Positions 1-60,570 of a stretch of DNA of 64,000 nucleotides are shown piece after piece. The DNA is from Altibacter lentus (GTDB lineage: Bacteria; Bacteroidota; Bacteroidia; Flavobacteriales; Flavobacteriaceae), in NCBI RefSeq assembly GCF_000746845.1, contig NZ_KN050846.1, forward strand, positions 1,247,394-1,311,393. The letters run 5' to 3'. Both the position numbers and the translations under genes were made by a program. Positions within the stretch are counted from its first letter, which is position 1, and each line of letters begins with the position of its first letter. The notes below the pieces were generated by a model that did no database searches, was not told the DNA's origin, and saw only the letters and a program-made list of their open reading frames with translations.

Positions 1-27
1 CGCACACCGTAACTCGTAAATTTCAGA

Positions 28-203
28 GTGGTAGATCACGCTTGCGGCGTGACGACATTCCACTCTTTAGAGCGGGAGATCACGCTTGCGGCGTGACGAC
101 ATTCCACTCTTTGGAGCGGGAGATCACGCTTGCGGCGTGACGACATTCCACTCTTTGGAGCGGGAGATCACGCTTGCGGCGTGACGACATTCCACTCTTT
201 GGA
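28..203. repeat. 44-bp tandem repeat, four units, derived from the tRNA-Gly 3' part
   Basis: Four contiguous units of exactly 44 bp (28-71, 72-115, 116-159, 160-203) abut the 3' end of tRNA-Gly. Read on the minus strand, each unit resembles the 3' part of a tRNA: GTCG, a six-pair stem with a 7-base loop where the T-arm sits (TCACG / CGTGA), then CTCCCGCTCCA, which copies the tRNA-Gly acceptor strand plus CCA. The T-loop is CCGCAAG instead of a TTCRANY type, so these are not functional tRNAs. The unit furthest from the tRNA (28-71) has decayed at both edges. No spacers are present, so this is not a CRISPR array. Confidence 0.9.
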
Positions 204-275
204 GCGGGAGACCGGGTTCGAACCGGCGACATTCAGCTTGGAAGGCTGACGCTCTACCAACTGAGCTACTCCCGC
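200..275 (-). tRNA. tRNA-Gly (anticodon TCC)
   Basis: The reverse strand folds as a full cloverleaf: acceptor GCGGGAG pairs with CTCCCGC, D-arm AGCTCAGTTGGTAGAGC, anticodon loop CTTCCAA giving TCC, and T-loop TTCGAAC. The discriminator T is followed by an encoded CCA (positions 200-202), unlike the other two tRNAs here, which lack CCA. It is the last of three tRNAs transcribed away from hpf. The immediately following DNA is a tandem repeat that copies its 3' end. Confidence 0.97.
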
Positions 276-428
276 GTTTATCTGAAATTATTTCAGAATG
301 GTATTATCAAAATTTCAAAGTGGATTACTAACCAAGGTTTGTGATCCTGTTCGGGTGACTCCGAACACAACTTTAAATCGCACTTTTACAAAAGCGAGCT
401 TTTGACTTCTGCTTATTTAAAATTTATG

Positions 429-510
<82 letters not shown>

Positions 511-547
511 AAACCCTTTATTTTAAAGAACTTTCTCTTTTTCAGAG

Positions 548-621
548 AGCCGATGGAGGGACTCGAACCCACGACCTGCTGATTACAAATCAGCTGCTCT
601 AGCCAGCTGAGCTACATCGGC
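548..621 (-). tRNA. tRNA-Thr (anticodon TGT)
   Basis: Standard cloverleaf on the minus strand: acceptor GCCGATG pairs with CATCGGC, anticodon loop TTTGTAA giving TGT, T-loop TTCGAGT. No CCA is encoded. It is the first tRNA after the promoter at 672-701 and the hpf terminator. Confidence 0.97.
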
Positions 622-721: not shown

Positions 722-1024
722 TTATAAATACGCTCTTTGTTTATGCTTGCGTTTTTTGAGCTGTCTCTCCAGCGAATGAATGCACTCATCGGTACCTAAC
801 TCGAAGGTCCTGGCTTCTTTTTTTACGATAAGATCGTCACCGGGAACACTGAGTAAAATCTCAACGATTTTGTTTTGCTTTTCACTGGTCTTCTGAACTT
901 TCAGAAACACGTCTGCGAATACAATCTTGTCATAGAATTGCTCCAGTTTATTTAGCTTACGCTCTATAAAGTGAATCAATTTTACATCGGCCGCAAAATT
1001 TGGGGTTTGCACATTTACCTTCAT
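722..1024 (-). CDS. hpf: Ribosome hibernation-promoting factor, HPF/YfiA (RaiA) family
   Basis: A 100-residue protein of the short HPF type, without the long-form C-terminal dimerisation domain. The N-terminus (MKVNVQTPNF) and the pattern of basic strands and helices, with a Lys/Arg-rich end (QLKKRKHKQR), fit this family. By family knowledge it binds the decoding region of the 30S subunit in stationary phase and inactivates ribosomes. It follows the xerC-type gene on the same strand, 24 bp away, so the two are probably cotranscribed. A terminator and then three tRNAs follow it. Family assignment is firm; the regulatory inputs are not visible. Confidence 0.93.
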   Translation of the reverse strand: MKVNVQTPNFAADVKLIHFIERKLNKLEQFYDKIVFADVFLKVQKTSEKQNKIVEILLSVPGDDLIVKKEARTFELGTDECIHSLERQLKKRKHKQRAYL

Positions 1025-11632: not shown

Positions 11633-11718
11633 TTTATTTTCTTGATGAAAGCAACTTCTTATTCCTTTAGAAGTTTGCGGCTGCAAAGGTATGATTTCGG
11701 CAGTTACACTGCAAGCAT

Positions 11719-11841
11719 TTGCGTTAGGGATTGAAGCGGCATCCTTTCTATAGCAAGCCTGGCTTGCTAGGGAAAGATATAGCGGAAAGCCCGGTCCTTG
11801 GGTGCGCCGGACTCTACGACAAGCACCCAAGGAAACGCCCT
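11719..11841 (+). repeat. Dispersed intergenic repeat, copy A
   Basis: About 120 bp between the cysteine synthase gene and the permease gene. Left part: TTAGGGATTGAAGCGGCATC. Middle: a small hairpin AGCAAGCC / GGCTTGCT. Then GGGAAAGATATAGCGGAAAG leading into CCCGGTCC, and a perfect 11-bp stem TCCTTGGGTGC / GCACCCAAGGA (11795-11805, 11823-11833). The right edge is AAACGCCCTA. The same framework recurs near 42.7 kb (inverted) and 51.6 kb. Confidence 0.8.
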
Positions 11842-53739: not shown

Positions 53740-56157
53740 TTAGTGGAACCGTGTTTTAATGAGGGCTCCGCTTTCGTCGTAGTGCTCCCATCTTCCAGTT
53801 TTCTTATCGTTTGTAAACGTTCCCGAAGACTCCATTATACCGTTCTCGTGATAATTGATCCAAGTCCCCGTCATCTTTCCTTTCGTAAAGTCTCCTTCAG
53901 ATTTGAGCGTGCTATCTTGAAAATAGTAACGCCAGTTCCCTGATTTCTCTCCATCGATATAGGATCCTTCCGATTCCAAAGTGCCATCTTCATAATAGTA
54001 CTTCCAATTTCCTGTCGCCACGCCTTCCTCAAAATGGCCCATATACAGAACTTTTCCGTTTTTATGATAGTACTTCCATTCTCCTGTCTTCTTCTCGTCC
54101 TTATACCGTCCGCTCTCAAGGATTTTACCATCACGATCAAATTCCTTAACAATTCCATCGGTTGCCTTTGGAAGCACAGTTGTTGGCGCATCCGTCGTTA
54201 TTTCGGCACTCGGTGTGTCGGAAGTCTCTTCTTTATTCGTGTCAACATCCGCAGCCAGTATCCGTAATCGTTGTCCGATCCTGATATTATCGCCGCTAAG
54301 ATTGTTCCATTCTCTAAGTTCTTTAATGGAAACATTGAATTGATTCGCTATCCGACCCAGATAGTCTCCCCTTTCAACCTTATAAAAAATCTGATTTTCT
54401 GTTGCTGTTGTTACTTCACCAGACACGGGTTTTTCTTCGGAAGAAATCACAGTCTTCTCTACGGAAGTGATCGTCTTTCGTTCTTCTTTTTGAGGTATCT
54501 CTGTTTCGGAAGCTTTTTTCTTAGCTGCTTCTTCCAGTGCGGCAGCTTTTTGGGCTGCTTCCTTCTTGGCTGCTTCTTCCAGTGCGGCAGCTTTCTGTGT
54601 TGCTTCCTTAAGGGCCAGCTCCTTTTGTTCGGCTTCGATACGGGCAATCTCTTTAAGAGCCGCTTCTTTCTTAGCTGCTTCTTCTAATGCGGCAGCTTTT
54701 TGGGCTGCTTCCTTGAGGGCCAGTTCCTTTTGCTCGGCTTCTATACGCGCCGCTTCTTTAAGGGCCGCTTCCTTCTTGGCTGCTTCTTCCAAAGCCGCAG
54801 CTTTCTGTGCTGCTTCCTTGAGGGCCAGTTCCTTTTGCTTGGCTTCGATACGCGCCGCTTCTTTAAGGGCCGCTTCCTTCTTGGCTGCTTCTTCCAAAGC
54901 CGCTTCTTTCTTGGCTGCTTCTTTTAGCGCCATTTCTTTTTGTTCGGCTTCGATACGGGCGATCTCTTTTAAAGCAGCTTCTTTAAGGGCTGCTTCTTCC
55001 AAGGCTTTTTGGCGTAATTCGGCTTCTCTTCGAGCTGCTTCCTTCAATTCGCTCTCCTTTTTGGCAGCCTCCTGAAGCGCTGCTTCCTTTAAGGCCGCTT
55101 CTTTGATCGCCTGTTCTTTTAACATCGCCTCTTTCTTTGCTGCCTCTTTTAAGGCAACTTCCTTGGCAGCAGCTTCAGCCAAGGCCGCTTCTTTCAATGC
55201 GGCTTCGCGTAAGGCTGCTTCTTTCAGTTCGGCTTCTTTTCGTGCCGCTTCTTTTAGAGCTGCTTCCCGCTTTTCTGCTTCTTTTAAGGTATTTTCAATA
55301 AGTTTCGCCTCCCGCATGGCAGCTTCTTTCTTTTCTGCTTCGAGTCTGGCCACCTCTTTGAGCTCGGCCTCTTTCTTTGCGGCAGCCTTTAAGGCTTCTT
55401 CTTTTACCTCATTCTCTTTGAGCGCATCATCGCGCAAAGCAGCAACCTTATTGGCTGCTTCGTTATTCATAGAGATAATGGCTTCTAGTTTCTTAACACG
55501 GTATAAACGGTCCTCTAATTCCTTCCGAAGGTATTGTGCATAGGCTGCTTCACTTTCTAAGGCTTTTTGCTTTTCTTCTAATTGGGTTAGGAGATCGTTC
55601 GTGTTTTGTGCATCGGGGGTTTTAGATGTGCTAACAACAGGCTCAAAACCTTGTGTTAACATGAATTCTTCTTTGTCAAAGTTCTCCTGTACGGCAGTAT
55701 CTCCAGCCGGACCACTCACACTTGCTTGAATGATCTGCACGCTGTTCGACCCTGTATTTTGGATCACGTTCTCTTCACTTTGAGGCGCATACGGAACAAT
55801 TATTTTTTTATCGTTTTGGGCAGTGGCAACGGCTTCTTCAAGGGGTTCTCCATACACATCGAAGTATTTCCATTCACCAGCTTTCCTTCCGTTACTGTAA
55901 TTTCCAATAGATTCCAGACGTCCGTTCTTATGATAATTTTTCCACTCACCCGTCTTTTTTCCATTGGCATAATATCCTACCGACTCCAACTCACCATTTT
56001 CATAATAGAATTTCCAGAGTCCGGTCTCTTCCGTTCCCATGAAAGCACCGGTATAATGGATGTTCCCATTGTCGTACTGCTTGCCAACATAGCTAATCTG
56101 CGAATAGGCTTCAGCAACCAGCAGGCTTATAAAAAAAAGGAGTACGGTTCTTTTCAT
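53740..56157 (-). CDS. MORN/YwqK-repeat, coiled-coil and LysM exported protein
   Basis: An 805-residue protein. Signal peptide to about 19. Four MORN/YwqK-type repeats lie at about 25-105 (G-x-W-K-x-Y-H-x-N-G pattern). A long Ala/Glu/Lys-rich coiled coil spans about 190-580, including three to four copies of a 35-residue unit (105 bp in DNA). One LysM domain sits at about 600-650 (YKVERGDYLGRIANQFNVS), and five further MORN repeats are C-terminal. LysM binds peptidoglycan, so it probably spans or anchors to the cell wall. Combined architecture is unusual. Confidence 0.88.
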   Translation of the reverse strand: MKRTVLLFFISLLVAEAYSQISYVGKQYDNGNIHYTGAFMGTEETGLWKFYYENGELESVGYYANGKKTGEWKNYHKNGRLESIGNYSNGRKAGEWKYFDVYGEPLEEAVATAQNDKKIIVPYAPQSEENVIQNTGSNSVQIIQASVSGPAGDTAVQENFDKEEFMLTQGFEPVVSTSKTPDAQNTNDLLTQLEEKQKALESEAAYAQYLRKELEDRLYRVKKLEAIISMNNEAANKVAALRDDALKENEVKEEALKAAAKKEAELKEVARLEAEKKEAAMREAKLIENTLKEAEKREAALKEAARKEAELKEAALREAALKEAALAEAAAKEVALKEAAKKEAMLKEQAIKEAALKEAALQEAAKKESELKEAARREAELRQKALEEAALKEAALKEIARIEAEQKEMALKEAAKKEAALEEAAKKEAALKEAARIEAKQKELALKEAAQKAAALEEAAKKEAALKEAARIEAEQKELALKEAAQKAAALEEAAKKEAALKEIARIEAEQKELALKEATQKAAALEEAAKKEAAQKAAALEEAAKKKASETEIPQKEERKTITSVEKTVISSEEKPVSGEVTTATENQIFYKVERGDYLGRIANQFNVSIKELREWNNLSGDNIRIGQRLRILAADVDTNKEETSDTPSAEITTDAPTTVLPKATDGIVKEFDRDGKILESGRYKDEKKTGEWKYYHKNGKVLYMGHFEEGVATGNWKYYYEDGTLESEGSYIDGEKSGNWRYYFQDSTLKSEGDFTKGKMTGTWINYHENGIMESSGTFTNDKKTGRWEHYDESGALIKTRFH
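54500..55000 (-). repeat. 105-bp tandem repeats within the MORN/LysM gene
   Basis: The coding DNA for the coiled coil contains a tandemly repeated unit of about 105 bp encoding ALKEAARIEAEQKELALKEA followed by AQKAAALEEAAKKEA, in about three and a half copies, with single-base variation. Confidence 0.7.
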
Positions 56158-60410: not shown

Positions 60411-60440
60411 TTGTGTTTCAAAAATTCATTTCTATATTTG
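60411..60440 (+). promoter_or_regulatory. trp operon promoter
   Basis: TTG (60411-60413) is 19 bp before TATATTTG (60433-60440), a perfect -7 box. The leader peptide ATG begins at 60451, giving a 5' leader of only a few bases. Confidence 0.7.
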
Positions 60441-60450
60441 AATCGAAATT

Positions 60451-60507
60451 ATGATCACAAACACAGTACATATTTGGTGGTGGAATACCTTACGTCAATC
60501 GTCGTGA
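60451..60507 (+). CDS. trpL: trp operon leader peptide
   Basis: An 18-codon frame encoding MITNTVHIWWWNTLRQSS, with three consecutive Trp codons, directly after the promoter and before the attenuator. A tryptophan-starved ribosome would stall at the Trp codons and shift the RNA structure. This corresponds to the type of element described as the Bacteroid-trp RNA motif. Confidence 0.85.
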   Translation: MITNTVHIWWWNTLRQSS

Positions 60508-60510
60508 GTT

Positions 60511-60570
60511 AAGCACTATCGTATGTAATTAAGATACTAAGGCTTGTCAATCGCGACAAGCCTTTTTTTT
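60511..60570 (+). terminator. trp attenuator with possible antiterminator
   Basis: GGCTTGTC / GACAAGCC (60541-60548, 60555-60562) with an eight-T tail is an intrinsic terminator 6 bp before trpE. Upstream, AAGC (60511-60514) with GCTT (60542-60545), and GTAT (60521-60524) with ATAC (60534-60537), could form a competing antiterminator. The second structure is weak and inferred. Confidence 0.72.

Follow-up and report, generated by a model that had tools for sequence, protein, structure and literature searches.

The window, the whole stretch of DNA that was analysed, comprises 64,000 nt of the Altibacter lentus genome (G000), bases 1247394-1311393 of a 3.14-Mb contig. An operon-like row of minus-strand genes at its left end carries the array described here, and the tRNA/tuf operon to which it belongs is conserved among relatives. 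The gene order is ribosomal protein S21, a tyrosine-recombinase gene, S30AE, tRNA-Thr(TGT), tRNA-Tyr(GTA), tRNA-Gly(TCC), tRNA-Thr(GGT), tuf and tRNA-Trp. The S30AE gene was identified by Pfam, and tuf by eye in the window and by Pfam in a congener's copy. Four tandem units lie in the spacer between tRNA-Gly(TCC) and tRNA-Thr(GGT), and the features are listed below in transcript order.

722..1024, minus strand: S30AE gene (ribosome-hibernation-type, hpf), the upstream neighbour, which served to locate the operon in relatives
547..621, minus strand: tRNA-Thr(TGT), same operon, upstream of the array
428..510, minus strand: tRNA-Tyr(GTA), same operon, upstream of the array
200..275, minus strand: tRNA-Gly(TCC), CCA encoded, body 203-275
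156..199, minus strand: unit 1, 44 nt, 3' end TCCA
112..155, minus strand: unit 2, 44 nt, same sequence as unit 1, 3' end TCCA
68..111, minus strand: unit 3, 44 nt, 3' end TCTA
25..67, minus strand: unit 4, 43 nt, final copy, with CTACCACTCT as its altered 3' arm

Elsewhere in the window, Rfam matches were obtained to the Flavo-1 RNA (11716-11800) and to the Bacteroidete trp leader (60431-60548). Tandem Repeats Finder also listed imperfect tandem repeats of 15, 30, 45, 105 and 150 bases at 54512-55266, which is perhaps a repetitive coding region.

At the left end, Tandem Repeats Finder reported a repeat at 26-211 with a period of 44, 4.2 copies, 97% matches and a score of 351. This bears out the 44-bp tandem repeat after tRNA-Gly that the sequence-only reading had described, in four units of 44, 44, 44 and 43 nt which together span 25-199 on the minus strand. 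In transcript sense a unit reads AAGAGTG-GAATGTCG-TCACGC-CGCAA-GCGTGA-TCTCCCGCTCCA, to be compared with ...GAATGTCG-CCGGTTCGAACCCGG-TCTCCCGCTCCA in the 3' part of tRNA-Gly. The 8 nt ahead of the unit hairpin (GAATGTCG) are tRNA-Gly's own, and the acceptor 3' strand TCTCCCGCTC is present in units 1-3. In these three units the place of the T-arm is taken by a hairpin with another loop, as had been noticed earlier; it also differs from the T-arm in sequence and is longer. Since GAATGTCG and TCTCCCGCTCCA flank the exchanged arm in both, a unit corresponds to tRNA-Gly from where the anticodon stem ends onward, with the T-arm swapped for a longer hairpin and a new 5' arm added.

The 5' arm GAGTGG starts every unit and is predicted to pair with the unit's own copied acceptor 3' end, at about nt 69-74 of the tRNA, so that the discriminator and C74 of the copied end are paired in the predicted fold. 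The copied tRNA end measures 12 nt in units 1-2, beginning near nt 65 (about nt 65-74), and has diverged in unit 4, where CCACTCT of CTACCACTCT is predicted to pair perfectly with the unit's own 5' arm AGAGTGG yet has drifted from the tRNA. The earlier description of each unit as the acceptor 3' strand plus TCCA is thus correct for the strand in units 1-3 and for TCCA in units 1 and 2 only, unit 3 ending in TCTA and unit 4 in CTACCACTCT. The letters CGTC occur in the unit before the stem; some of them are tRNA-Gly's, and stem and tail fit no published REP family clearly. An assembly artefact was considered and is not favoured, the array taking up about 175 bp inside a 3.14-Mb contig and similar arrays being present in independent assemblies.

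The spacer between tRNA-Gly and tRNA-Thr(GGT) of the window was scanned and no terminator-like or promoter-like site was seen, so read-through RNA of the array is expected, and the array is likely to be present in the operon transcript. Among the three tRNAs at the left end of the window, CCA is encoded by tRNA-Gly alone, as had been pointed out. The tRNA-Gly of 3/3 congeners ends in CTCTA, without encoded CCA and one substitution away from that of the window, and encoded CCA was dropped as a key feature for this reason. CCA on every unit, which a decoy for CCA-adding or processing enzymes would be expected to carry, was found in two of the four.

The operon itself is present in all three congeners, and the array is absent from the Gly-Thr spacer of each. 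The comparison with sister species suggested by the sequence-only reading therefore gave, at species level, the strain-specific occurrence with random copy number that it had named as one part of what would speak against its proposal. Other repeats were seen in other spacers of the congener operons: in G003 the Tyr-Gly spacer holds about ten copies of a ~54-nt hairpin unit that includes GGATCACCGAGCGAAGCGAGGTAATCC or a variant of it, and in G002 the 3' end of tRNA-Thr occurs a second time.

For the wider operon survey, 91 loci were used including the window's own (30, a further 60 taken nearly in order of HPF score, and G001); they are the nearest by HPF score and not a random sample, G273 was left out, and some are cut by contig ends. 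Inter-tRNA spacers were scanned for copies of the 3' end of the preceding tRNA, with a match scored +1 and a mismatch -2. At a score of at least 13, such a copy was found in 15/289 spacers of the 91 loci and in 0/1445 shuffled ones, and at a score of at least 10 in 19/289 against 8/1445. The window's own copy scores 12, a value that one shuffle also reached, so the case for it rests on the fourfold repetition and on the in-register match of 8 + 12 nt. In the best 20 cases the distance from the tRNA end to the end of the copy was at most 142 nt. The copies lie on the 3' side of tRNAs in sense orientation, mostly match the local tRNA and are gained or lost between sister species. Two main types of end-copy element were distinguished in the operon loci, type A, to which the window's array belongs, and type B. 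Two forms were rarer: in L060 and L101 the copied Tyr end is 13 nt long and a hairpin sits in the T-loop, and in L128 the copied Thr end is 24 nt long.

The Tyr-Gly spacers of L043 (G003), L051, L054, L058, L065 and L066 contain hairpin units GGATCACGAGC..GCGAGTAATCC, in numbers from a few to about ten. Many Tyr-Gly spacer units end in GTAATCC like nt 58-62 of tRNA-Tyr, and by eye they resemble the lys unit of E. coli.

The type A core was found in 8/397 genomes of the family, directly behind tRNA-Gly(TCC) in five of them; at the matches in G047, G322 and G091 a tRNA was absent from the 3-kb flank examined. A longer type A pattern matched seven contigs of the named genome collection, six of them behind tRNA-Gly(TCC): Christiangramia, an uncultured Algibacter, Aquimarina, an uncultured Muriicola, a Flavobacteriaceae MAG and a Bacteroidetes MAG. 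The seventh match came from an Actinomycetes contig, where the surrounding 600 nt contain no tRNA. The two scans overlap, the Algibacter being G262 and the Flavobacteriaceae MAG G223. The anatomy of the array, its position in the operon and the recurrence of the element after tRNA-Gly(TCC) in other genera can all be read directly from these sequences.

The number of type A units varies among genera from 1 to 4. The copies mostly match the local tRNA (TCTCTCGCTC in G262 and G250, TCTCCCGCT(C) in G081 and G223), and where the tRNA acceptor reads CTCTCGC the copy likewise reads CTCTCGC. The arm shifts with the tRNA, being AGCGA for TCGCT in G262 and G250 and AGCGG for CCGCT in G081, and the predicted fold is kept across genera despite the changed arms. 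Copies that depart from the local tRNA are the last unit of the window, unit 1 of Christiangramia (TCCGT with the arm ACGGA) and the second unit of L261, which is decayed. In Aquimarina each of three tandem units is preceded, by eye, by a terminator-like hairpin, and the last unit has CACTC instead of CGCTC, giving a better pairing with GAGTG, like the last unit of the window. Replication slippage from the tRNA end, which had been offered as an alternative to decoys, or duplication from there, is therefore supported in outline, given the absence of the array in 3/3 congeners, the change in unit number by genus and the local match of most copies.

Type B is the commoner of the two and has the layout arm-GAGAAGTTTA-REP-like hairpin-A-tRNA nt 59 to 74 (positions counted by hand). 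A first pattern gave 14 matches at 10 tRNA loci in 6/11 genomes; each of the 14 is followed by the 3' end of a tRNA located upstream, copied exactly or, by eye, with 1-2 mismatches, and this tRNA lies within 340 nt in 13 and at 1.3 kb in one. With a fixed-length pattern, 28 matches at 20 places in 16 genomes were obtained from 219 genomes searched. A tRNA stood upstream in 25 of the 27 examined (L205 was left out), a linkage that is partly selected because the pattern was drawn from tRNA-linked copies. An exact copy of at least 15 nt (15-18 nt) was present in 18 of these 25, and one of 8-13 nt in the rest. The two elements without a tRNA in the flank examined were L200 and L220. Nine tRNA species of the family carry type B elements (Thr, Gln, Leu, Gly, His, Met, Lys, Ile and Trp), and the copy starts at nearly one place, nt 57-59 by hand numbering, at many tRNAs. 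A strict type B pattern run on 296 genomes across the phylum gave one match, in the same family and behind tRNA-Leu. As a raw count without a chance control, a terminator-like hairpin precedes 18 of the 30 distinct type B elements, while nine lie before a further tRNA and three fall in neither group.

Two type B sites are recorded separately. At G027:C2:483.5-483.7 kb (L220, L249, L257) elements with the 3' end of tRNA-Leu(TAG) have no tRNA in the 1.5 kb upstream, and a tRNA-Leu with such elements is located in the same genome near 426.8 kb. In the window's own genome (L141, L028; G000:C1:479157) an element with a diverged tRNA-Ile 3'-end copy sits in the rRNA operon spacer between tRNA-Ile and tRNA-Ala.

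As a less biased control, the bare REP core CTGAGCGNAGTCGAAG was searched, and 30 of its 176 matches were read. The core is dispersed in 10/12 genomes, the window's genome not being among the ten. Ten of the 30 rows read (7 places) lay behind a tRNA, 8/10 of them with GAGAAG, and all ten had 10-40 nt of flank repeated upstream. Of the 20 matches not behind a tRNA, two had GAGAAG (the displaced tRNA-Leu end of G027); among the remaining 18, 15 had no flank repeat longer than 8 nt and three from one genome (L228, L238, L247) had one. The tRNA-linked REP-like form carries GAGAAG as an extra motif.

Pairing between the type B arm and the copied tRNA end was assessed on 27 elements. In register, 91.6% of cells were paired against 32-51.5% when the arm was slid by 1-3 columns, an advantage that is partly by construction because the structure was named by the analyst from the arms. 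The number of two-sided changes was 33 against 12.0 (sd 3.7) in shuffles and the covariation score was 0.367 against 0.188, with 0/500 shuffles as high in either measure. Two of the five measures did not exceed the shuffles, namely how many pairs show a two-sided change (5 against 4.2; 203/500) and how many further pair types occur (16 against 14.0; 74/500), and RNAalifold on the type B alignment gave a different, weak fold with a two-sided change in 0/8 pairs. When arms were swapped among 35 distinct elements, mean pairs fell from 4.17 to 3.56 of 5, the maximum in 2000 permutations being 3.89.

E. coli K-12 was used as a yardstick, with tyrT/tyrV and ten other tRNA regions, a hand-picked set covering 47 of its tRNA genes. 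In 11/39 tRNA spacers the tRNA 3' end recurs as an exact copy of 18-19 nt, those of tyrT, tyrV, lysT, lysW, lysY, lysZ, lysQ, lysV, argQ, argZ and argV, and in the other 28 the longest copy was at most 8 nt. Some of the 11 are known RtT/tyrT repeats. In the nine of these 11 elements that were laid out by hand, the arm fitted its own tRNA best in eight and tied in one; the tyr arm makes 10/10 pairs with its own tRNA end. The arm is directly followed by GAGAAG in the tyrV units and by GAGAAC in tyrT, and by neither in the seven lys and arg elements laid out. The lysW unit contains GAGCGAAGCGAGTCATCC, which by eye is near GAGCGAAGCGAGGTAATCC of the Flavobacteriaceae Tyr-Gly spacers. Ahead of the copied end, lysQ and lysV (L268, L274) have GATTCGAACCTGCAG, in which most of the T-arm of tRNA-Lys can be recognised by eye in inverted form.

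The Rfam model RF00391 placed the E. coli tyr and lys units above its cut-off of 45. It scored the argZ and argV elements (L269) at 31.0 and 29.2 bits, below that cut-off despite the same layout, and it did not list the argQ element at E up to 1. It gave no match in the window at the gathering threshold, and none at E up to 1 in 17 Flavobacteriaceae sources (10 with type B, one with type A, L262, and 6 further).

Going by a paper cited in PMC4986893, the E. coli tyrT repeats and RtT RNA were published in 1991 or earlier. Like the 178-bp tyrT/tyrV repeats, the Flavobacteriaceae elements lie downstream of the tRNA, on the same strand and in tandem. The E. coli repeats end in the last 19 nt of the tRNA, from nt 58, and the Flavobacteriaceae units too end in a copy of the 3' end of the upstream tRNA. 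A 5' arm complementary to the copied end, a criterion for RtT which is the analyst's reading and not Rfam's, is common to the E. coli units, the predicted type A folds and type B. GAGAAG after the arm is shared by type B and the E. coli tyrV units, whereas the window units lack it. The window further differs from RtT in its 44-nt units, in a copy of about nt 65-74 together with a variable-loop stretch before the hairpin, and in an arm that pairs with about nt 69-74, in contrast to nt 59-63 in the RtT kind. The second, commoner element type at other tRNAs and the like layout in E. coli are likewise matters of plain sequence comparison.

We lean, with modest confidence, towards reading the array as a local RtT-like 'tRNA-end' repeat, made by duplication and amplification at the level of DNA at a tRNA gene. 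The tRNA-Gly gene would have been duplicated directly downstream over its 3' part, which runs from where the anticodon stem ends to C74. In this copy a longer hairpin would stand in for the T-arm, and a 5' arm able to pair with the copied acceptor end would make the whole a compact imperfect palindrome. In the window species, amplification would have led to four tandem units, with partial homogenisation with the tRNA. More generally, the duplication would begin in or near the T-arm, join a hairpin and be followed by tandem amplification. The driver would be a process acting on DNA at tRNA genes, such as template switching or palindrome-primed duplication, perhaps aided by REP-like hairpins, and selection for an RNA would not be the driver. 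The array would be co-transcribed as spacer RNA and removed in tRNA processing with little consequence. The arm may have come from palindrome-perfecting template switching, or from selection that keeps the copied end paired and clear of the true tRNA.

Tail-copying hairpins behind other tRNAs, in relatives and in E. coli, make a recurring by-product of tRNA gene evolution likelier than a purpose-built decoy, and the 18/30 type B elements behind terminator-like hairpins favour a DNA-level origin over a decoy RNA. Several points weigh against this origin. Selection on an RNA structure would likewise produce an arm that changes with the tRNA, and two of the five pairing measures did not exceed the shuffles; some copies depart from the local tRNA, the G027 elements carry a tRNA-Leu end without that tRNA upstream, and RtT RNAs are reported to be expressed in Gammaproteobacteria; the near-constant start of type B would be better explained by a site-specific enzyme than by random duplication, with other forms, the 13-nt Tyr copies (L060, L101) and the 24-nt Thr copy (L128), starting elsewhere than nt 57-59; and the position of the window array in an operon without a spacer terminator may leave room for a role as RNA.

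An enzyme of this kind might be a Y1/HUH transposase, of the RAYT kind or another, that puts REP-like hairpins at the T-loop motif GTTCGA of tRNAs. The arm would serve as a guide by pairing with the target alongside, and duplication of the 3' end would leave the tRNA intact. In favour of this, the type B core occurs as a dispersed REP-like sequence in 10/12 genomes, its tRNA-linked form has the extra GAGAAG also found in E. coli tyrV units, and the boundary is similar over many tRNAs. According to PMC2965389, enterobacterial rtT-like elements belong to BIMEs. PMC3733652 distinguishes two super-families of REPs, GTAG and CGTC, of which CGTC has no transposase known for it, and its four mentions of tRNA do not deal with tRNA-end copies. 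The window hairpin, unlike REPs, is not dispersed: beyond the array and tRNA-like places, its own genome contains only short, weak matches.

A RAYT gene (NF047646, 102.8 bits, cut-off 80) was found inside the tRNA-His array of G395, where it sits between two units of the 3'-end array at about 118.4-119.5 kb of G395:C9 (L145/L175). RAYT was rejected as the mover, although this case had looked decisive: at 17/18 RAYT loci examined (25 matches were listed) the flank was without a tRNA or GAGAAG-type hairpin, two having a bare REP core. No match to PF01797 or NF047646 was obtained in the window's genome, which with six others makes 7/18 genomes searched without RAYT, and at least five of these seven carry the tRNA-end elements. 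Our guess is that the RAYT element of G395 landed in a pre-existing tRNA-His array. Placement of mobile palindromes by a transposase is unlikely on balance, since the copied end, where a tRNA is present, is the upstream tRNA's own and not a donor's, and among the nine E. coli elements laid out GAGAAG is confined to tyrV. We know of no Y1 element that duplicates its target.

A broader reading, which we regard as doubtful, would unite RtT repeats and the Flavobacteriaceae tRNA-end hairpins in one widespread class of tRNA-seeking palindromic elements. These would be placed at the common T-loop by an enzyme or a replication process, regenerating the 3' end of the tRNA that is hit together with a guide-like arm, and the window array would be a branch specialised on tRNA-Gly.

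It is distinctly unlikely that the units are functional RNAs, cut from the tRNA operon transcript as small hairpin RNAs that act in trans, for example by mimicking a tRNA end and so occupying RNase P, RNase Z or the CCA-adding enzyme, or by modulating the stringent response. PMC4986893 offers a precedent: it describes how RtT RNA is set free from the transcripts of E. coli tRNA operons, with a link to the stringent response, and reports Northern blots that show RtT RNAs in Actinobacillus. The type A fold predicted across genera with changed arms, the arm pairing in type B and the place of the array within an operon, in a spacer without a terminator, would also suit such a role. Against it, the array is missing in 3/3 congeners and the core is patchy in the family (8/397 genomes), 18/30 type B elements lie behind terminator-like hairpins, as by eye do the three Aquimarina units, CCA is not conserved, and the fold prediction has the tRNA-like 3' end paired. 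For the suggestion of the sequence-only reading, a decoy of CCA-adding or processing enzymes, there is no positive support in view of the last three of these points, the paired discriminator and C74 included.

The T-loop of tRNA is a known crossover region for integration, and a partial 3' tRNA copy beside an intact gene resembles the leftovers of integrating elements. Remnants of attachment sites of phages or islands integrated at tRNA 3' ends are nevertheless highly improbable, because at most 142 nt separate tRNA end and copy end in the best 20 cases, which leaves no space for an integrase or cargo, and because the extra hairpin and the tandem arrays with arms matched to each tRNA would stay unexplained. 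A phage or plasmid origin was rejected after the array gave no match to the phage and plasmid sequences searched. In archaeal genomes, tRNA fragments have been ascribed to integration into tRNA genes by mobile elements or to a CRISPR spacer, according to PMC9897764.

The E. coli tyrT/RtT repeats are known, and the tRNA-end hairpins of Flavobacteriaceae are new as a variant of that kind; no description of them was found in the open-access literature. Because a like layout, with an arm that tends to follow the tRNA, recurs at nine tRNA species in another phylum, what seemed a local oddity becomes a rule that can be tested on the starting point of the copy, the pairing partner of the arm and the mobility of the copy number. 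It bears on the origin of short palindromes, on the instability of tRNA spacers and on the limits of covariation as proof of a functional RNA, and the possible cross-phylum rule is the part most worth following.
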